From NCBI GenBank assembly GCA_026225275.1, contig JAMFSL010000097.1, positions 1 through 49,453 of the forward strand: a stretch of 49,453 bases of DNA, given 5' to 3'. The DNA is from Puia dinghuensis. GTDB taxonomy: Bacteria; Bacteroidota; Bacteroidia; Chitinophagales; Chitinophagaceae. Positions 2,173 through 35,200 of the stretch are shown piece by piece. Positions within the stretch are counted from its first letter, which is position 1; each line of letters starts with the position of its first letter. A model generated the notes under the pieces. The model had not been told where the DNA came from. It ran no database searches and was given only the letters and a program-made list of their open reading frames with translations. The position numbers and the translations under genes were made by a program.

Positions 2173-3212
2173 CTGCTTTTAAAAAATTTGATGCTTACAA
2201 TTAACAAACTTCCCAGCAAAGCCGGTACGACCAGATTAATCAACCATATGGCAAAGGAGGCAGCAAAGATTCCGACAGTATTGGCGCTAAATATTTCCAG
2301 CACCTGGATGCTAGCTCCCCACCTTAACCCTAATTCCGTCAGGAAAGTAAATGTAGGGATTACAGCCATTACCAGGAAAACAACACTCATCCCACCCCAA
2401 ACCTGGTTAAAACTAAGGAATATCCCAAAAACGGGAAAAACCAGGCTATATTGAATCATAAACACAATATACCGGGCAAAAGATAAGAACAATATTCTCA
2501 ATAAGATGTTCGTATTGAAATTTTCTAAAACTTTTATGAAAGCGCCGATCTTCCGGATCCAGGAGAACCGGGACAGATGCAAGGCAACCTGAGGAAGTCT
2601 GAAATAAAGAAAGGCCAATCCTGCAAATAATACCCCTACGCCGACCGCCAGCATGGTAAAACCCCACTTCAACGTAGGGTCATGGTGTGCCTGCCCATAT
2701 AAAAAAGGATGAATATAATAGAGACCTGCCGCCCCAATGACCAGCGTGATCAGCAATTGAGAGATACTACATACCATCGTCAGGGATATGGCGGCGATCC
2801 GATGACCTTCTTTGACATATAAAATACGGCCCAAATATTCGCCCATGCGGTTGGGGGTAAAAGACGCCAGGGTTGTCCCCGTGAAGACGGCCTTGAATGC
2901 ATCGGTAAAGGATATTCCGCCCACGGGCCTCAAAGCCAGCTGCCATTTACGAGCCTCTATCCCCCAATTGACAGGCATTAAAATAATAACCAGCCAAATC
3001 CTCCACTGGCCGGGCCCAACGATCGCATGCAAGACCTGATCCATGGACGTCCGCCAGTCGGGCTGGTGAACGATCTGCCAGCCGATGAACCAGACCAGTA
3101 AAAGGAATACCAGAGGACCCAGCACATAAGATAGAGTAAGCCGGCCGCTGTTTTGCTTGGAGTTGCCTATTATTTTGATATTTTTGTTCAAAGGACGATC
3201 AATCGGCTTCAA
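2169..3212 (-). CDS. Flippase-like / lysylphosphatidylglycerol synthase TM-domain (UPF0104) membrane protein
   Basis: About 347 residues with at least seven hydrophobic spans and the family hallmarks VNWGIEARKW and a TPNRMGEYLGRILYV loop. Proteins with this domain (AglD/MprF membrane part) are integral membrane proteins, often linked to lipid or polyprenol transfer. The frame begins at a TTG at 3212, but a -7-like box (TATTTTTG on this strand, 3210-3217) overlaps it. An in-frame TTG at 3191, giving MNKNIKII, is an alternative start. Coupled to the downstream DUF3108 gene by a 4-base overlap. The specific substrate is unknown. Confidence 0.8.
   Translation of the reverse strand: MKPIDRPLNKNIKIIGNSKQNSGRLTLSYVLGPLVFLLLVWFIGWQIVHQPDWRTSMDQVLHAIVGPGQWRIWLVIILMPVNWGIEARKWQLALRPVGGISFTDAFKAVFTGTTLASFTPNRMGEYLGRILYVKEGHRIAAISLTMVCSISQLLITLVIGAAGLYYIHPFLYGQAHHDPTLKWGFTMLAVGVGVLFAGLAFLYFRLPQVALHLSRFSWIRKIGAFIKVLENFNTNILLRILFLSFARYIVFMIQYSLVFPVFGIFLSFNQVWGGMSVVFLVMAVIPTFTFLTELGLRWGASIQVLEIFSANTVGIFAASFAIWLINLVVPALLGSLLIVSIKFFKSR
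3179..3186 (+). promoter_or_regulatory. Candidate -7 box upstream of ruvC
   Basis: TATTTTTG fits TAnnTTTG, about 40 bases upstream of the ruvC ATG, with TTGG at 3157-3160 as a possible -33 partner. It lies inside the 5' end of the divergent membrane gene because the two starts are only 14 bases apart. Confidence 0.3.
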
Positions 3213-3226
3213 AAATACTCTTCCTG

Positions 3227-3829
3227 ATGCAAAATGCGGCTAAAATAATTCTGGGTATCGATCCCGGCACTGTCGTGATGGGATACGGGCTGGTCCGATC
3301 CAATGGCAGCCAGCTGCATATGGTCGACATGGGCGTACTCAGGCTACCCGCCTACAAGGATGGCCATGAACGGCTAAGGCTTATCCATCAGAAGGTGCAG
3401 GAGCTCATCGAGCGGTTCGACGCGGGAGACTTCGCCATTGAAGCGCCCTTTTTCGGGAAAAACGTGCAAAGTATGCTGAAGCTCGGCAGAGCACAGGGAG
3501 TGGCTATCGCGGCCGCTATGCAAGCCGGCCTGCCCGTGACGGAATACTCCCCGAAAAAAGTCAAACAATCCATCACAGGCAACGGCAATTCGGAAAAGGA
3601 ACAGGTTTGGAAGATGCTGCAGCATATCCTTCAACTGGAACAGGATACCCCCGCCTATGACGCCAGTGACGCCCTGGCGGTAGCCGTCTGTCATCACTTT
3701 CAATACCAGACCGCAGAGAAGATCAACAGCGACGTCACCGCCGCAGCCACGAAGAAGCAACGGCGTAACAAGCCCGGCAGCTGGGAAGACTTCGTCCGGC
3801 AAAACCCTGGCAAAGTACGTGATCTTTAA
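3227..3829 (+). CDS. ruvC: Crossover junction endodeoxyribonuclease RuvC
   Basis: A 200-residue Holliday junction resolvase. The RNase H-like acidic tetrad is visible: Asp12 in GIDPGT, Glu72 in AIEAPFFGKN, and Asp145 and Asp148 in YDASDALAVA. The basic segment TEYSPKKVKQSITGNG that contacts junction DNA is also present. The C-terminal 30 residues (KKQRRNKPGSWEDFV) are a basic tail common in Bacteroidota RuvC. It acts in the cytoplasm with RuvAB to cut four-way junctions in recombinational repair. Its stop overlaps the stop of the convergent HIT gene. Confidence 0.95.
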   Translation: MQNAAKIILGIDPGTVVMGYGLVRSNGSQLHMVDMGVLRLPAYKDGHERLRLIHQKVQELIERFDAGDFAIEAPFFGKNVQSMLKLGRAQGVAIAAAMQAGLPVTEYSPKKVKQSITGNGNSEKEQVWKMLQHILQLEQDTPAYDASDALAVAVCHHFQYQTAEKINSDVTAAATKKQRRNKPGSWEDFVRQNPGKVRDL

Positions 3830-15206: not shown

Positions 15207-16487
15207 GTGAGCAGGGTTTTCATTACGGGCATGGGCATCATCAGTGCTGTAGGAAATTCCCTGGCCGAGAACCGGTCGGCCCTTAAGGCCGGAAAAGCAG
15301 GTATTATTTTGTCCCGACATTTGCCTACCCGTTATGCCGGTATTTTACCTTTCGGCGAAGTCCTTATCGCCACCGATGAACTCAAGGAAAAATTCGAGGT
15401 GACCGATCCGGGCATTACCCGTACCACTTTACTTGCGCTGCATGCTTTTACAGAGGCCATAGCGGATGCCGGCCTGACCGATCGGGAGCTCCGTGATCCC
15501 ACGACTGTGCTGGTCGGCGCCACTACCGTCGGCGGAATGTGTCTGACGGATGAACTCTACCGGGACACCATTGGCTCCTGCGAAGGATCGGCCTATCTTT
15601 CTTCTTATGATTGCGCATCGGTGCACATGTACCTGCAGGATCGCTATCATATGCAGGGTTTTGCTACCACGATCAATACTGCTTGTTCATCATCCGCCAA
15701 TGCCATACAATTTGGGGCAAGGCTGATCAGGAATGGGCTGGCTTCCAGGGCCATTGTGGGGGGAACGGATAGTCTGGCCAAATTTACTATTAATGGTTTC
15801 AATGCGCTGCAGATACTGTCGACCGGCCACTGCCGGCCTTTTGACCGGGACAGGTCAGGACTGAATCTTGGGGAAGGGGCGGCCTTTCTTGTGCTGGAGG
15901 GAGAGGACGCGAGAGCGTCCGATCCTAGAAGCGCCAGCGCTGCGGTCGGGCATGGCAGGAATTTGGACGCGAGAGCGTCCGATCCTAGAAGCGCCAGCGC
16001 GGCGGCCGGCAAAAAGATATATGCGGAACTAACGGGATACTGTAATACCAATGATGCCTTTCATCCTTCTGCGTTATCGGCCCAGGGAAATGGCCCTTAC
16101 CTGGCCATGAGGGGGGCATTGCAGTCAGCAGGAATGAATGCACAGCAAATCGATTTTATCAATACGCACGGCACTGCCACGGAAAACAACGATGAGGCGG
16201 AGAGCAGGGCAATGGTCCGGCTGTTCGGCGAGCCGCCACCCTTTGTATCGACCAAATCTTACACCGGTCATACCTTGGGCGCCTCAGGCGCCATCGAAGC
16301 GGTATTTAGCGCATTATCGCTGGAACACCAGGAGATCTATGCCAGTCTGAATTTTGAGCAGCCTATCCCCGATATTGGTCTGCGACCTGTACAGGCTTAC
16401 GGGACCTATCCTTTGCATCATGTGATGTCTAATTCTTTCGGCTTCGGTGGAAATTGTACATCGCTTATTTTTTCCAAAGTCAACTAG
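15207..16487 (+). CDS. Beta-ketoacyl-ACP synthase (KS) with a duplicated in-frame insert
   Basis: A 426-residue condensing enzyme with a complete triad: Cys160 (NTACSSSAN), His321 (INTHGTATENND) and His355 (SYTGHTLGAS). It starts at GTG 15207. It is about 27 residues longer than its paralogue at 18971, and the extra length is a surface-loop insert at residues 233-268 made of two copies of DARASDPRSAS separated by 20 residues, encoded by a palindromic DNA repeat. The insert falls between strands FLVLEGE and KKIYAELTGY and leaves both ends of the fold intact, so the enzyme is probably active. It pairs with the CLF-like protein directly downstream. Confidence 0.92.
   Translation: MSRVFITGMGIISAVGNSLAENRSALKAGKAGIILSRHLPTRYAGILPFGEVLIATDELKEKFEVTDPGITRTTLLALHAFTEAIADAGLTDRELRDPTTVLVGATTVGGMCLTDELYRDTIGSCEGSAYLSSYDCASVHMYLQDRYHMQGFATTINTACSSSANAIQFGARLIRNGLASRAIVGGTDSLAKFTINGFNALQILSTGHCRPFDRDRSGLNLGEGAAFLVLEGEDARASDPRSASAAVGHGRNLDARASDPRSASAAAGKKIYAELTGYCNTNDAFHPSALSAQGNGPYLAMRGALQSAGMNAQQIDFINTHGTATENNDEAESRAMVRLFGEPPPFVSTKSYTGHTLGASGAIEAVFSALSLEHQEIYASLNFEQPIPDIGLRPVQAYGTYPLHHVMSNSFGFGGNCTSLIFSKVN
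15905..16000 (+). repeat. Two 36-base direct repeats, 60-base period, with internal palindromes, inside KS gene
   Basis: 15905-15940 and 15965-16000 are identical and exactly 60 bases apart; similarity continues imperfectly for about 13 bases. Each unit begins with the hairpin GGACGC-GAGA-GCGTCC; the first also ends in AGCGC-CA-GCGCT. The frame is kept (20 codons). It looks like a mobile or amplified palindromic element fixed inside a gene. Confidence 0.95.
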
Positions 16488-16489
16488 CC

Positions 16490-17569
16490 ATGCTCTATAT
16501 CCATCAAACCTCCTGTATTTCGCCTCAAGGCACTTATCCGTCGCCGGGGGCCGGTGTAGCAACAGCGGGTATCACCGCGCCGAGAAGGCCGGTGGATAAT
16601 CTGTTGAGGGCGATTGAACCTTCGTATGAAGGTATCCCGGGAAGCATTTTACGAAGGATGAGCAAATCCGTCAAAATGGGTGTGGGTGCGGCACTCTCGC
16701 TTCCGGGTTCGGCCGCGCCCTCGCGCGTCCTCTCCCCACAAGGCATCCTGATAGGAACAGGCAATGGCGGAACGGAAGACAGCGTCAAATTTCTGAAGCA
16801 GATCATCGATTACAATGAAGGTTTACTGACGCCGGGGACTTTTGTACAAAGTACTGCCAACGCTATCGCTTCACAGATTGGGTTATTACAGCATAATAAC
16901 GGATATAATGTTACCTACGTCCATAGGGGACTGGCCTTCGAGAGTGCCCTTATCGATGCGGCCATGCTGGTGAACGAACATCCCGGACACAGCTACCTGG
17001 CAGGCGGCGTGGATGAGATATCCGACCATCATTACCGGTTTGAATACAGCGAAGGCTGGTATAAAAAGGAAGACCTGTCGGGAAAGGATCTGTATACAAC
17101 CGACTCACCAGGCAGTATTGCGGGAGAAGGGGCTGCCATGTTCATTTTAAGTGGTACTCCGGCCAATGCCGTGGCTGAGGTGAAAGGGGTCCTGACCCTG
17201 CGGAGTGAGGACCACCCTACCATTAAGGCTGCGATACAACTTTTTCTCGAACGGCATTTGCCGGCAGGTACTTTGCCGGATCTGCTGCTGAGCGGAGAGA
17301 ATGGCGACAACCGGGGACTAGAAGGATATGAACTGTGCGAGGCCATGATGGCTCCCGATACTACCATCGCTCGTTTCAAACACCTGTGCGGGGAATATCC
17401 GACGGCATCAGCCTATGCACTATGGCTGGCTTGTAACCTTCCTGCGGTTCTGCCGGGACATTTGGTTAAATGGCTACCTTCTAAAGAGAAGGTATATCAA
17501 ACCATTCTTATTTACAATCAGTATGAATTCAGCCAGCATAGTCTGATCCTGCTTGAAAGGAGCCTTTAA
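16490..17569 (+). CDS. Ketosynthase-like chain-length-factor protein (no active-site Cys)
   Basis: A 359-residue thiolase-fold protein related to the N-terminal KS domain of ApeC-type subunits. The position of the nucleophile reads YVHRGLAFESALIDA with no cysteine, and the GHT site is replaced by HLCGEYPTASAY, so it cannot condense by itself. Such proteins pair with an active KS (here the gene just upstream) and set chain length. The start at 16490 (MLYIHQTSCISPQGTY) is shared in style with the paralogue at 18970. A Pro/Ser/Ala-rich patch (SLPGSAAPSRVLSPQG) is four residues longer than in that paralogue. Confidence 0.85.
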   Translation: MLYIHQTSCISPQGTYPSPGAGVATAGITAPRRPVDNLLRAIEPSYEGIPGSILRRMSKSVKMGVGAALSLPGSAAPSRVLSPQGILIGTGNGGTEDSVKFLKQIIDYNEGLLTPGTFVQSTANAIASQIGLLQHNNGYNVTYVHRGLAFESALIDAAMLVNEHPGHSYLAGGVDEISDHHYRFEYSEGWYKKEDLSGKDLYTTDSPGSIAGEGAAMFILSGTPANAVAEVKGVLTLRSEDHPTIKAAIQLFLERHLPAGTLPDLLLSGENGDNRGLEGYELCEAMMAPDTTIARFKHLCGEYPTASAYALWLACNLPAVLPGHLVKWLPSKEKVYQTILIYNQYEFSQHSLILLERSL

Positions 17570-18970: not shown

Positions 18971-20170
18971 TTATTCACTTTGAGAAAAGACCAGGGAACT
19001 GCAACTCCCGCCGAAGCCGAAGGAATTGGACAACACATGCCTGATCGGTTGATTGGATAAAAAAGTGGTGACGGGCGAAAAAGGCAATTCGGGCATGGGC
19101 GTATGCCAGCGAAGGTTAGGATAGACCAGCCCATGCTGAACAGCCAGCACGGATAATACCGCTTCTATCCCGCCACTGGCGCCCAGTGTATGCCCGGTGA
19201 ACGATTTGGTCGAGCTCATTTTTGGATACACGGGGTCGAATAACCGCTGGATCGCTATGCCTTCAGACAGGTCATTGTTCTGCGTCCCTGTCCCGTGCAG
19301 GTTGATATAATCGATGTCGGCGGGTTGCAATCCACTGCGCCCGAGCGCTGTCGACATGGCCAGCCAGGAGCCCCGGCCATCGGGTGAAGAAGCCGTCTGA
19401 TGCCAGGCATCGTTGGCATTCGCATATCCGCTGAGCGTGCAGCGGACGCCGGAAGGAAGGGAGACGGCCACCTTGTCGGATACCAGCACCAGATAGCCGG
19501 CGCCTTCGCCCAGATTCAGTCCCTGGCGATCGTTGTCAAAGGGCTTGCAATAAGCGGCATCCAGTATCATCAGCGCATTAAAGCCGTTGAGGGTAAAGCG
19601 GGTCAGCGCGTCCGTCCCGCCTGCCACCACTACATCCAGTATTCCATGCCGGATCAATCTGGCGGCGAACCCGATAGCATTGGCGGAAGAGGAGCAGGCG
19701 GTGCTGATCGTCGACTGAAAATGGTGGAGACCCAGGTGGTCTGCCACCCACTCCGTGCTATAGCCGCATTCGTGCTGGATGACTTCGCGGAGTTTTCCTT
19801 TCGGCGCGGCGAAGAAATTTTCGGTCAGGTCCATGCCGCCTACCGTATTGGCGGAGACAAAGCCTGTGCGCAGGGCGACCAGGTTGGGGATAGCGGCCTC
19901 TTCCAGCGCCTCGCGTGCTGCGATCAGGCTTAGAAGCGCAGTCCTGCTCATGGGTTGGGGGCCGGACACCTGAGCCAGTTCGGCCAGCCGTACATTGCTG
20001 CATTTCACTTCTGCTACAGGTATCTTATGTCGGTGAGCAGTATCGAGCCAGGCAATATTATCCATACCGGCCTGCCCGTTGGCTAACGCCGACAAGCATT
20101 CGCCAATGTCATTCCCGATGGCGGATATCATCCCCGCTCCTGCAACGGCTACCGGTGACCATTTATTCAT
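18971..20170 (-). CDS. Beta-ketoacyl-ACP synthase (KS), paralogue of the 15207 KS
   Basis: A 399-residue condensing enzyme with triad Cys159 (STACSSSAN), His292 (NLHGTGTQNND) and His327 (SFTGHTLGAS). It shares distinctive segments with the 15207 KS (ANDAWH/TNDAFH; GFNAL; KPFDNDRQGLNLGEGA), so the two are duplicates. Coupled to the CLF-like gene downstream. Together the two KS/CLF-like pairs may make two different chain types, or elongate the polyene in two stages; which does which cannot be told from the sequence. Confidence 0.93.
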   Translation of the reverse strand: MNKWSPVAVAGAGMISAIGNDIGECLSALANGQAGMDNIAWLDTAHRHKIPVAEVKCSNVRLAELAQVSGPQPMSRTALLSLIAAREALEEAAIPNLVALRTGFVSANTVGGMDLTENFFAAPKGKLREVIQHECGYSTEWVADHLGLHHFQSTISTACSSSANAIGFAARLIRHGILDVVVAGGTDALTRFTLNGFNALMILDAAYCKPFDNDRQGLNLGEGAGYLVLVSDKVAVSLPSGVRCTLSGYANANDAWHQTASSPDGRGSWLAMSTALGRSGLQPADIDYINLHGTGTQNNDLSEGIAIQRLFDPVYPKMSSTKSFTGHTLGASGGIEAVLSVLAVQHGLVYPNLRWHTPMPELPFSPVTTFLSNQPIRHVLSNSFGFGGSCSSLVFSQSE

Positions 20171-31494: not shown

Positions 31495-32583
31495 CTATTT
31501 TTTGAACATGGTTTGAATGACAGGCATGATGAGGTGTTCGGCGACATAGTTCAGTCCCAAAAACCCAGCGATCGTGGCGGCCATCTGGCCCTGGTATAAT
31601 TGCGAATCCGTGCCGACTTCCCCGAGAGCAGGCATGTCGGGGCCCATGGCCAGGATAAAGATGTCTTTGGAATCCGGCACCTGGGGGCCGTGGCTGGTCC
31701 ATTGCTTTTTCACTTTGTCTCCTCTGCCATGATCACAAGCGATCAGCAGCGTAGTCTTGTCTTTGTATTGGGGAATGGATTGGATATAATTCCATAAGGA
31801 GGCGATCATGGCTTCCTGCGAATGGAGAGTACTGACGTAGAAATCATAGCTGCCGGCATGGCCGTAATCGTCCGTCTCGCCCATTTCGAGATACATCACC
31901 CGGGGCCGGTAGGCTTTCAGGTACTCTTTTGCCTGGAAATAGGTGAGCAGGTCAGGCCGTTCACCAAAAGGTTTGGGGGCCAGTTGCTGCATTTCATTCA
32001 GCAGCCGGATCTCTTTATCGGGCCGGTCCACCTGATCGGTATCGCAACTGATCATCAAACCGGTCCGCGGTTTGTTAAGGATGTAGTCGAACAGGTTCGA
32101 CATGGCGAATACGGCTACCTTGCCTTTGTATTCCTTCTGGTTATTGATAAATTCCAGGACATTGGTGCTGTTGTTCAATATTTTATTATTGCTATTGACC
32201 GCAGGATCGGCAAAGCCCACCAGCGTTTCGGTAAAACCGGGTCCGGTAAGATTATAAGGATTAGAGACATCCACCTTATTGCCGATGGTGCGATTGCCAT
32301 ACAACTGACCACTGTCCCGGATCGTGCTCCAGAACCAGGGAAATAGTTTTTTCCGGCGGGCCTGTACGCTGTCATCCCAATACTGGGTCCGGAGTGCTCC
32401 TGCCCGTTTGGTAAAAGTAGGGTCGTTGATCAGCGCAGAGTCTATGCCGGTGAATATTTCCTGCCAACGGACACCATCCCAACCGACGATAAGAAGGTTT
32501 TCTGTCTTTCGCGGCTGAGCGTAGGATGTAACGAGGCCTAATCCGAGGCAAACAAATAACAGGATCGATCTCATAGTATTCAT
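31495..32583 (-). CDS. Secreted alkaline phosphatase superfamily protein (paralogue 1)
   Basis: A 362-residue exported protein (signal cut near SYAQ). Superfamily metal sites are visible: VGWDGVRWQEIFTG, METGETD-like MGETDDYGHAGSYD and ACDHGRGDKVKKQWTSHG. A Thr in TGPGFTETLVG is the likely nucleophile. It shares most of its sequence with the next gene, including the ends MFKK. Its ATG overlaps the stop of that gene (ATGA), so they are coupled. It may hydrolyse a phosphodiester, phosphoester or sulfate; substrate unknown. Confidence 0.82.
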   Translation of the reverse strand: MNTMRSILLFVCLGLGLVTSYAQPRKTENLLIVGWDGVRWQEIFTGIDSALINDPTFTKRAGALRTQYWDDSVQARRKKLFPWFWSTIRDSGQLYGNRTIGNKVDVSNPYNLTGPGFTETLVGFADPAVNSNNKILNNSTNVLEFINNQKEYKGKVAVFAMSNLFDYILNKPRTGLMISCDTDQVDRPDKEIRLLNEMQQLAPKPFGERPDLLTYFQAKEYLKAYRPRVMYLEMGETDDYGHAGSYDFYVSTLHSQEAMIASLWNYIQSIPQYKDKTTLLIACDHGRGDKVKKQWTSHGPQVPDSKDIFILAMGPDMPALGEVGTDSQLYQGQMAATIAGFLGLNYVAEHLIMPVIQTMFKK

Positions 32584-33668
32584 TTTTTGAACATGGTTGT
32601 AATAACAGGCATAACGGGGTGATCGGCCACGTAGTCGAGTCCCAGGAATCTGGCGAGCGTGGCTGCGATCTGCCCCTGGTAGAGTTGGGTACTGGTGTTC
32701 ATCTCGCCCAGGGGCTGCATATCAGGTCCCATGGCCAGGATGAAGATATCCTTGGAATCGGTGATCCCCGGGCCATGCGAGGTCCATTGACTCTTGACCT
32801 TATCGCCACGGCCGTGGTCGTTAGAGATCAGTAGGGTCGTCTTACCCTTGTATTGCGGAATGCTCTGGATATAGGTCCAAAGGTCGGCGATCAGGTGCTC
32901 CTGTCCATGCAGCGTGCTGATATACCAGTCATAACTACCCGCATGACCATAATTGTCCGTTTCACTGAAATTAATATACAGTACCCGGGGATGGTATTCT
33001 TTGAGATATTCCTTTGCCTGAAAATAAGTGACCAGGTCGAGTCTTTCCCCAAAGATCTGAGGTGACAGCCGCTGCTCCTCATTCAGCAATTGGAACGCCG
33101 TCCCGGGCAGGTGGACTTCTTCGGAGTCGCAATTGATGATCAGGCCGCTGCGTTTGACATTGAGGATATTGTCATACAGTTTGGAGGTGGCGAATACCGC
33201 CACTTTTCCCTTGTATGCAGGTTGGTTATTGATAAACTCAAGGACATTGGCATCTTTTTCCGGGACCGAATGATTGCCGTCGACAGTGGAATCCGCAAAC
33301 CCGATGAGGGTTTCCGTAAAACCGGGCAGCGTGACATGCCAGCGATTGGCGACGTCTACCTTATTGCCAAGGGTCCGATTTCCATACATCTGCCCCTGCT
33401 GGCTGAGGGTACCCCAAAAGAAAGGCAATAATTTCTTCCGGCGGATAGCGGGGTCGCTGTCCCAGAATTCGGCCCGCATTTCGGCAGACCTTTTTGTAAA
33501 GGTCCGGTCATTCATAATCGCCGAGTCTACCCCTGTAAATATTTCCTGCCAGCGGACGCCATCCCAGCCGATGATGATCAGATTTTCAGTCTCTCGCGTC
33601 TGGGCATGCAGTTGTGCGATGCTTAGTCCGAGGCAAAGGGATAAAAGTATTGTTCTCATACGTTGCAT
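32580..33668 (-). CDS. Secreted alkaline phosphatase superfamily protein (paralogue 2)
   Basis: A 362-residue protein with the same core as its downstream neighbour: IGWDGVRWQEIFTGVD, LPGFTETLIGFAD, FSETDNYGHAGSYD and SNDHGRGDKVKSQWTSHG. Signal peptide MQRMRTILLSLCLG; the Met at 33668 directly follows the SusD stop and is the best start. Tandem duplication within the locus suggests related substrates of slightly different specificity. Confidence 0.82.
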   Translation of the reverse strand: MQRMRTILLSLCLGLSIAQLHAQTRETENLIIIGWDGVRWQEIFTGVDSAIMNDRTFTKRSAEMRAEFWDSDPAIRRKKLLPFFWGTLSQQGQMYGNRTLGNKVDVANRWHVTLPGFTETLIGFADSTVDGNHSVPEKDANVLEFINNQPAYKGKVAVFATSKLYDNILNVKRSGLIINCDSEEVHLPGTAFQLLNEEQRLSPQIFGERLDLVTYFQAKEYLKEYHPRVLYINFSETDNYGHAGSYDWYISTLHGQEHLIADLWTYIQSIPQYKGKTTLLISNDHGRGDKVKSQWTSHGPGITDSKDIFILAMGPDMQPLGEMNTSTQLYQGQIAATLARFLGLDYVADHPVMPVITTMFKK

Positions 33669-33670
33669 AT

Positions 33671-35200
33671 TTATTGTAACAACCACATGGCGCTATTGAT
33701 ATTATCTCCGGCTGCGCCGAATTGGCTTTGAACAGCAGCGTTATAGGCCGCTTCATTCGACTGGGTTTCCGATATCGGATACATGAACCGCAGTGGCAGA
33801 ATGCCGTTATTCAGCATGCCGCCACCGTTCAGGGTGAGCACCGGCAATCCTGTACGACGCATATTGAAATAGGGTTCTTCGAAAGAGTTGTAGAAGAAAG
33901 CGATGTATTTCTGGTAGATGATCTGCTGCAGCGCCGTAGCCGCGTTATATTTAATGGCAGGTTGGGCGTAGTAGGTCGGGAAATATGTCGCAGTCTGATA
34001 GGTGCCGGCAGGCAGGTTTTCGTAGGTCTCGTAGAAGGACATGGAGGCCTGGATGCCGTTCATGTAAAAAGTCTCAGGATTGGCCGTTATCCAACCTCGC
34101 CAGGCTGCTTCTGCCAGGTTGAATTCCAATTCCGGGTAACCTACTCCCACATGTGGTTCCGGCGCAGGATTGGCCGTATACCGGATGTTCAAGCTGGAAG
34201 ACGTTCCCGACTGGGTAAAGATATCCGCGGCGGTAGTATTATCGATGCTGGCATTGATCCCGGCATAGGCGGTAAAATCGGTTGGCAGTTTATTGGCGGT
34301 CACGGAGTTCGGCGTCTGAGAAAAGTATGCAAACAGGCGTGGATCCTTGTTGGTGGTCAGGAAAGTACAGAAGGCGGAATCCGGGTAGAGCCTGGTGACT
34401 TCTGTATTCTTATAGAGGGGATAGATATTTCCGTTCTCATTGGAATAGGTCAGGGCACCGTCATCGGCATTGCTCTGGAAGAGCGGATAGGTCGTCGGAT
34501 TGTTGTAGATATTCTGAAACTTCTGGACAACCTGAAGGTCCGGGTCCGAGGTCTTACCCGATAACGTCAGGAGCACGCGAAGAGTAAAGGAATTGATCAG
34601 CTCTCTCCACTCCATAACATCATTCGTGCTGGTGCCGTAAATGATATCATCTGTTAGCGGGCTTTGTCCGTTCGAGAATGGGACGAGCTCGGTATTGGCG
34701 CTATCGAGTTCGCTGAGGATGCCCAGGAAAACGGATTTCTGTGTATCGTAGGCAGGATCATAGACACCGTTGGCGGCCTGCTCGGCCTGGGAGAAAGGGA
34801 TATCGCCATACAGCATCGTCGTTTTGTAATAGTTGTATGCATCGAAGAATTTGGCGATGGCATCGTATTCCGGTTCCTGGTAGGTGGCTGCTTCGAGCTT
34901 CATCTGGTGGACCTGCAGCAGAATGGCATAGGTGCTAAAGTCGCCTTGCAGCCAGTTCCAGTATTGCTCGACATACGGTTGCTGGGCATTGCCGGTCTGA
35001 TGACAGCGAAGGGAGGCGCCGCCGGGATCGGGCGGGCTGATGAGTGTGAAAGAGCTTGACGAAATATTGGCCAGCAGGAGGTAAGGCGGCACGCTTGCTG
35101 CCTGGTCAGGATTTTCGTCCAGTTGTCTAAAGTGAGCCTTACTGCAGGATAAAAGGACCAGCATGCAGCAGACGATGGTTGACAGGCGTATCTTGTTCAT
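33671..35200 (-). CDS. SusD/RagB family outer-membrane lipoprotein
   Basis: A 509-residue surface lipoprotein. The lipobox LLSCS (Cys about 19) anchors it. The helical SusD core with TPR-like repeats covers about 70-330, and the RagB/SusD C-terminal block PELEFNLAEAAWRGWI and FNMRRTGLPVL is present. It binds substrate at the surface and forms a lid over the SusC barrel encoded just upstream. The ligand is unknown, but the phosphatase genes behind it point to a phosphorus-containing nutrient. Confidence 0.93.
   Translation of the reverse strand: MNKIRLSTIVCCMLVLLSCSKAHFRQLDENPDQAASVPPYLLLANISSSSFTLISPPDPGGASLRCHQTGNAQQPYVEQYWNWLQGDFSTYAILLQVHQMKLEAATYQEPEYDAIAKFFDAYNYYKTTMLYGDIPFSQAEQAANGVYDPAYDTQKSVFLGILSELDSANTELVPFSNGQSPLTDDIIYGTSTNDVMEWRELINSFTLRVLLTLSGKTSDPDLQVVQKFQNIYNNPTTYPLFQSNADDGALTYSNENGNIYPLYKNTEVTRLYPDSAFCTFLTTNKDPRLFAYFSQTPNSVTANKLPTDFTAYAGINASIDNTTAADIFTQSGTSSSLNIRYTANPAPEPHVGVGYPELEFNLAEAAWRGWITANPETFYMNGIQASMSFYETYENLPAGTYQTATYFPTYYAQPAIKYNAATALQQIIYQKYIAFFYNSFEEPYFNMRRTGLPVLTLNGGGMLNNGILPLRFMYPISETQSNEAAYNAAVQSQFGAAGDNINSAMWLLQ

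Follow-up and report, generated by a model that had tools for sequence, protein, structure and literature searches.

Very probably, the insert in the ketosynthase (KS) gene at 15207-16487 is a copy of a small mobile repeat, non-autonomous and equipped with a hairpin, which has multiplied in this genome and in its sister lineage and which in the KS was enlarged by a local duplication of 60 nt. The window, i.e. the whole stretch of 49,453 nt that was analysed, is contig C188 of a draft genome (G000; 6.59 Mb in 365 contigs), and the genomes compared with it are drafts in many contigs. We refer below to a sister genome, Chitinophagaceae bacterium palsa_949 (recorded name), which is the source of the KS locus L064, and to a congener taken as outgroup, G022. 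The sister appears under two handles, G040 and G039 (the genome of L064), which we counted as one because their contig coordinates are identical. Copies of the element were scored with two models: R1, a covariance model derived from 16 copies that all lie outside the window, and R2, derived from 15 short-hairpin copies that include copy 1 of the window and three copies from congeners. The features concerned are as follows.

15207..16487, plus strand: beta-ketoacyl synthase (KS) with a FabB/FabF-like fold, 426 aa (ORF; Pfam PF00109 and PF02801; Foldseek FabB/FabF)
15901..15963, plus strand: copy 1, full-length short-hairpin element (R1 62.3 bits, E 3.7e-16)
15965..16009, plus strand: copy 2, truncated, with hairpin, core and start of the tail (R1 29.6 bits, E 2.6e-5)
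16454..17569, plus strand: gene for a ketosynthase-like protein, in which copy 3 lies (ORF; PF13723 at E 3.6e-4, below the curated cut-off; homologue in G022)
16735-16689, minus strand: copy 3, truncated long-hairpin element (R1 match 16689-16730, 35.5 bits, whole-genome E 2.9e-7)
18971..20170, minus strand: paralogous KS of 399 aa, without insert, used for comparison only (ORF; Pfam)

The surrounding cluster is one that we take to be of pigment type (flexirubin/aryl-polyene-like). An earlier note on this DNA had reported that a unit of 36 bases occurs twice in identical form in the KS gene, at a distance of 60 bases, and the two units are indeed found at 15905-15940 and 15965-16000. The unit itself is real but corresponds only to the front of an element of 63-67 nt, of which the second copy is truncated. 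Copy 1 consists of GAGA, a hairpin (GGACGC-GAGA-GCGTCC) that folds as claimed, the core GATCCTAGAAGCGCCAGC and a tail ending in GGCAGGAATT; it reads in the KS frame as GEDARASDPRSASAAVGHGRNL. Copy 2 starts 60 nt further on, has the same hairpin and core, and reads as LDARASDPRSASAAAG. Successive 60-base stretches of the pair are identical at 47 of 60 positions and a 45-base stretch is 96% alike. The proposal that the repeat was inserted twice is unsupported, since the identity of the hairpins is accounted for no less well if the element was inserted once and 60 nt were then duplicated in tandem. The partial inverted match noticed at 16724-16735 exists too; it is the beginning of copy 3, which in the next gene, on the plus strand, reads as AALSLPGSAAPSRVL. 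For this gene, the first start given by the ORF caller is 16454 and the likely start is at about 16490; its homologue in G022 (L188) is six residues shorter at the site of the copy. Folding energies of the three window copies are not outstanding when compared with shuffles (z of -1.45, -0.90 and -1.25), and a scan of the window against Rfam returned no match at the gathering score.

The catalytic triad described as intact (Cys160, His321, His355) is invariant in 20 aligned sequences, and the paralogue at 18971 is, as stated, devoid of the insert and 27 residues shorter (399 versus 426 codons). The insert is located between the Pfam matches to the N-terminal (2-233) and C-terminal (272-384) ketoacyl-synthase domains. 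In an AlphaFold model of the KS (pTM 0.86, 20-row alignment), residues 237-239 and 242-260 of the insert have a pLDDT below 50, as do residues 109-125, 127-134, 194-197 and 199-202 elsewhere in the protein; the low values across the insert fit a flexible loop. All 18 KS homologues with coordinates (out of 20 loci chosen, L047 and L067 being left out) lack the insert and carry the segment LVLEREED..KK or a similar one. Among the matches listed, the closer homologues from the genus mostly appear as two matches, one ending at about 234 and the other restarting at about 266-269 of the query, whereas L035 gives one single gapped match instead. Alignment of the KS protein with four relatives, two of which also belong to the set of 18, shows a gap of 20 residues relative to the sister protein (L064) and of 30 residues relative to the three others. 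The sister KS is 87% identical over the aligned part and its linker at the insert site is 10 residues longer than in the other KS homologues. A decayed copy in this linker was considered, but neither model has a match above noise there (best overlap with R1 of 5.7 bits, E 3.4; no match with R2).

Many copies of the element are dispersed in the genome. The 20-mer located behind the hairpin has 25 genome matches with up to three mismatches, including the two of the window, versus none for the reversed pattern. The hairpin 16-mer provides weaker evidence, with six exact matches (two in the window) and, at up to two mismatches, 13 matches versus seven for its reversed pattern. As at most 132-150 first-look candidates were scored per genome, the copy counts per genome are to be taken as lower bounds. 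With R1, G000 has at least 97 matches at E<=1 and at least 84 at E<=0.01, and at the latter threshold 1-2 matches each were found in three of 38 other genomes (G007, G002 and G037); the one in G037 (E 2.3e-4) was discarded because its sequence is not element-like. Across the genus, with 33 genomes searched, R1 detects at least 73 copies in G000, at least 68 in the sister and two in G007 when the threshold is set at E<=1e-4. R2 at E<=0.005 detects at least 75 in G000, at least 64 in the sister, three in G007 and three in G002, and has no match in the other 29. Among the titles and abstract openings listed, the searches of the open-licence literature retrieved no description of such an element for Chitinophagaceae.

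The element is 63-67 nt long and comprises AGAG, a hairpin, GAT..TAGAAGCG..AGC and a looser tail. In its long-hairpin form (67 nt; 39 aligned copies from G000), one base and AGAG precede a stem of 8 bp, closed by a 4-nt loop of the GAGG type and followed by GATNNTAGAAGCGNNAGC and a tail that frequently ends in CAGGAAT. The foot of the hairpin is AGAG in 38 of these copies and AGAA in the remaining one. The short-hairpin form, to which the KS copies belong, has a 6-bp stem and a length of 63 nt. The hairpin is maintained through compensatory changes: among the 38 distinct long-hairpin rows, 91.1% of the stem cells are paired and 46 stem cells have changed on both sides, versus a mean of 12.7 in shuffled alignments, none of 500 shuffles reaching 46. 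When the partner is slid by 1-3 columns, pairing falls to 23-48%. The first stem pair is G-C in 36 of the 38 rows, the second is G-C in 25 and A-U in eight, and in 22 rows the bases of column pair 7/22 do not pair. Since both the reading frame and the gene vary from copy to copy, the constraint on the hairpin acts on the nucleic acid and not on the peptide. The reverse complement often has CGTC beside CTCT, yet this lies within the stem, whose arms vary. A second hairpin in the tail was rejected, since neither of the two registers tested clearly exceeded shuffles or slid controls; what RNAalifold adds is limited to two G-C pairs of the core, which show no covariation. We also noticed a second repeat module, which has the same hairpin and continues GAAATACCCGAG..GGGTACGA.CGAG, with tandem units in places (L002, L006, L007, L026/L168).

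Two sets of copies from G000 were examined further: a table of 80 copies at >=24 bits, 61 of which are strong (>=48 bits), and a genic set of 41 copies (>=29 bits) in 38 ORFs of at least 180 aa. For 25 of the 41 genic copies, the corresponding sites of the sister and of G022 were compared, with a joined query and then by single alignments. Nineteen of the 25 sites could be judged in the sister, the six others giving no match or falling at a contig end, and the copy is absent from 15 and present at four (C337:29597, C270:445, C186:1095, judged from one flank, and C249:36734). Some of the shared sites nevertheless differ: at C337:29597 the sister has a single copy versus a nested pair in G000, and at C249:36734 (L164; sister site L175), a linker within a large ATPase-like protein, the copies of the two genomes are read in different frames. 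Among the 15 absences is C237:24793, where the sister has an outer copy without the nested one. In G022, no recognisable copy was found at any of the 20 aligned sites; at two of them (C308:8564 and C249:36734) other, unrelated linker residues are found. Other linker residues also occupy the sister sites of C311:4082, C249:15505 and C357:5546. Because many sister sites have a short unrelated linker and no exact empty site, clean insertion is seen at few of them, the cleanest being C117:33187, where 87 nt (a 67-nt copy plus 20) of G000 are missing from the sister. The sister-site alignments, most of which concern diverged sites, reveal no target-site duplication.

Some copies are nested in others. 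For 10 of the 61 strong copies, the upstream flank is the left half-hairpin of another copy, an arrangement found in 18 of 20000 shuffled flanks and at 115 of 175260 other positions, so that about 0.05 would be expected by either control. In eight of these 10, the downstream flank resumes at the outer right arm with the loss of a few inner bases, and in seven of the eight a second core lies behind the resumed arm. It thus seems that a new copy goes into the loop of an older one and replaces a few bases; the nested copy at C237:24793 is polymorphic between G000 and the sister. Such nesting suggests a process that recognises hairpins and perhaps acts on single strands. The idea that such nesting has frame preservation built in was abandoned, since the net gain over the resident hairpin, counted by hand, varies among the eight complete cases: 63 nt in five, 60 nt in another, 64 nt in a further case, which is intergenic, and 66 at C237:24793, measured there from the sister.

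These arrangements also bear on the possibility that the repeat spreads by DNA repair or replication, with new copies seeded at hairpins by gene conversion or template switching and slippage yielding the tandem and nested ones. Such a mode would accommodate the nested copies with their lost inner bases, the repetition of the KS pair at exactly 60 nt, and the lack of both an associated Y1 transposase and a visible target duplication. We nevertheless consider it rather unlikely, because the copies occupy unlinked sites in dozens of unrelated genes and share the AGAG start and the tail, which suggests a unit that is recognised and moved.

If the element is moved, a candidate for the mover is the Y1 tyrosine transposase of classical REP/RAYT systems, which acts on GTAG-tagged REPs. 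The size of the element, its hairpin, its tens of copies and the two Y1_Tnp genes of G000, at C180:21815 (L173) and C249:30224 (L174), would be in keeping with such a system. However, the foot is AGAG, many copies are genic, no copy was found within the 3.2-3.3 kb fetched around either Y1_Tnp gene, and Y1_Tnp genes are widespread among congeners that lack the element (leaving aside G000 and the sister, 21 of 31 genomes of the genus have them). A REP/RAYT system is therefore improbable, and the search for the Y1_Tnp family linked no mobilising enzyme to the element.

Intragenic REPs are described in the excerpts of PMC3733652 as small stem-loops, some of which lie in ORFs and add 20-30 residues, with dimers and double insertions per gene. 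According to the same excerpts, most REPs are intergenic, and the CGTC families, which have no transposase of their own and have also been reported from Bacteroidetes, have stems whose first two positions are A/T pairs and a CCA-like tail (PMC3733652). The long-hairpin copies described here resemble CGTC REPs (stem of 8-9 bp, loop of 4-5) in their 8-bp stem and loop of 4, the short form having 6 bp. In contrast, their stem mostly starts with G-C, the conserved part behind it (core plus tail) spans about 43 nt, with a tail that is longer and different, and 37 of the 61 strong copies are genic. Unlike GTAG REPs, they have no GTAG foot, and none lies in the 3.2-3.3 kb around either Y1_Tnp gene.

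Rickettsia palindromic elements (RPE) are, in the portions of PMC2229807 available, elements of 105-146 bp with terminal inverted repeats and long stem-loops, found between genes and in frame within conserved protein genes, one host enzyme being reported active (PMC2229807). The present element likewise lies in frame inside conserved protein genes; it differs in its length (63-67 nt), its single 6-8 bp hairpin near the 5' end, its unpaired core and tail, and its host, which belongs to another phylum. RPE are set apart here by their description and not by sequence. Bacterial MITEs (NEMIS, ERIC/RU-1, RUP) are presented in the same portions as non-autonomous and dispersed, with some translated in frame (PMC2229807). 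Our element shares these three properties, the last one in places, but neither terminal inverted repeats spanning its full length nor a target-site duplication could be seen, most of the sister sites compared having diverged. PARCELs, as far as the excerpted text of PMC2996958 describes them, are translated palindromic DNA in which a motif of 25 residues is repeated in tandem, within ORFs that have no assigned function (PMC2996958). Here, palindromic DNA is translated too, but mostly as single or nested copies and in genes of known families. Since the element departs from the defining features of RPE and REPs (size, terminal repeats, GTAG foot, transposase, A/T start of the stem), we file it under neither. 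It is a new element family of a rare kind, which works like RPE and intragenic REPs and is set apart from them by their descriptions.

The suggestion that a palindromic element colonises coding regions is borne out by the host genes, as dozens of copies exist and many of them are in frame in conserved genes. In G000, 37 of the 61 strong copies are entirely within ORFs of at least 180 aa, versus 16361 of 20000 segments of 67 nt drawn at random from the window; genes are thus somewhat avoided, yet widely invaded. In the sister, this is the case for 22 of its best 30 copies. At E<=0.001, 30 of the 38 host ORFs have a Pfam match and eight have none, one of the 30 (the KS-like gene of the window) scoring below the curated cut-off. 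The matched hosts include an ACP phosphodiesterase, an adenine deaminase, a tryptophan dioxygenase, the delta' subunit of DNA polymerase III, LptF/G and a protein of the ornithine/aspartate carbamoyltransferase type. In the ACP phosphodiesterase, the adenine deaminase (C-terminal domain) and an anhydro-MurNAc kinase, the Pfam match is split into two stretches, the better of which ends immediately before the insert, as if the copy interrupted the domain. A tandem pair 63 nt apart, arranged like the KS pair, was also observed inside an ORF of the sister (L110, G039:C20, about 3183-3312).

Some might see in these inserts useful peptides, i.e. added linkers that improve or regulate the host proteins. 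The reading frames could be viewed in this way, since 38 of the 41 genic copies lie in three of the four frames that are free of the core TAG. On the same strand as the gene, 16 copies are read in the DxRS frame, two in the other open frame and one in the stop frame, with CAG replacing TAG; the antisense copies are distributed over two frames (12 and 10). However, copies occur in either orientation (19 on the strand of the gene, 22 antisense), the peptide differs with the frame, the hosts have no evident common function and 15 of the 19 judged sister sites have no copy. A useful role is therefore highly improbable. The notion that this is just a normal loop of the KS, or a tandem repeat of local origin and no wider meaning, to which the tandem units and their location in a linker might lend themselves, can be dismissed: where the earlier note would have had it imply a unit unique in the genome and residues shared by all orthologues, the opposite was found, with dozens of copies elsewhere and an insert absent from the homologues inspected.

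For the favoured reading, a mobile hairpin-bearing repeat, we propose the following course. The element would carry no gene and would be copied by something acting in trans. It would have multiplied partly before and partly after the split of G000 and its sister, copies landing within and between genes in either orientation. A genic copy would survive when the reading frame stays intact, when the frame used is free of the core TAG and when the site is a flexible linker. The host protein would then gain about 20 mostly polar residues and keep working. Judging from intact motifs and open frames, the host proteins, including the KS, probably remain active, and the effect on the host is presumably near neutral.

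Protein-invading palindromes are best known from Rickettsia, whose genomes are small and host-bound. Here, a 6.6-Mb Bacteroidota genome holds them in dozens of genes. As the copies occupy different sites in the sister genomes, the process can be put to the test: which linkers tolerate 20 extra residues, at what pace they receive them, and what mobilises the element. They also constitute a trap for annotation: similar peptides (DxRSxS, SDIGRSLERPL, ELPLLRSTVPSNGLS) in unrelated proteins do not make a protein domain.

The source of the element may be sought in permease genes. In G002 and G007, two congeners that have not undergone the burst, R2 has six matches, and each of them is found on the strand opposite to a permease gene, no more than a few bases away from its stop codon; three of the six are R2 training copies:

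about 1495-1555, antisense: congener permease copies (G007: L240, L243, L248; G002: L241, L244, L247)

L241 and L244 are nearly identical neighbours. The permease genes end ..NPxxxLRAE, and the three permeases checked match Pfam FtsX and MacB_PCD (one MacB_PCD match being below the cut-off). Two copies of G000, C6:15144 and C257:162540 (L264, L266), which were also used to train R2, occupy the same position at a permease stop codon. Duplication of the permease gene together with its 3' flank may explain these copies without mobility, and the permease-end palindrome is a possible progenitor of the element. We tentatively suggest, though we would not favour it strongly, that a palindrome which in related species is fixed at the 3' end of permease genes of the FtsX/MacB type became mobile in one lineage, with its own loop as preferred landing site and with most of its frames readable on both strands. 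If this is true, such a palindrome can spread through protein genes, likely including essential ones, and supply them with new linkers.

The window also contains, at 31497-33672, direct repeats of 56-300 nt with a spacing of 1085 nt and 72-77% identity, which look like duplicated paralogous genes.
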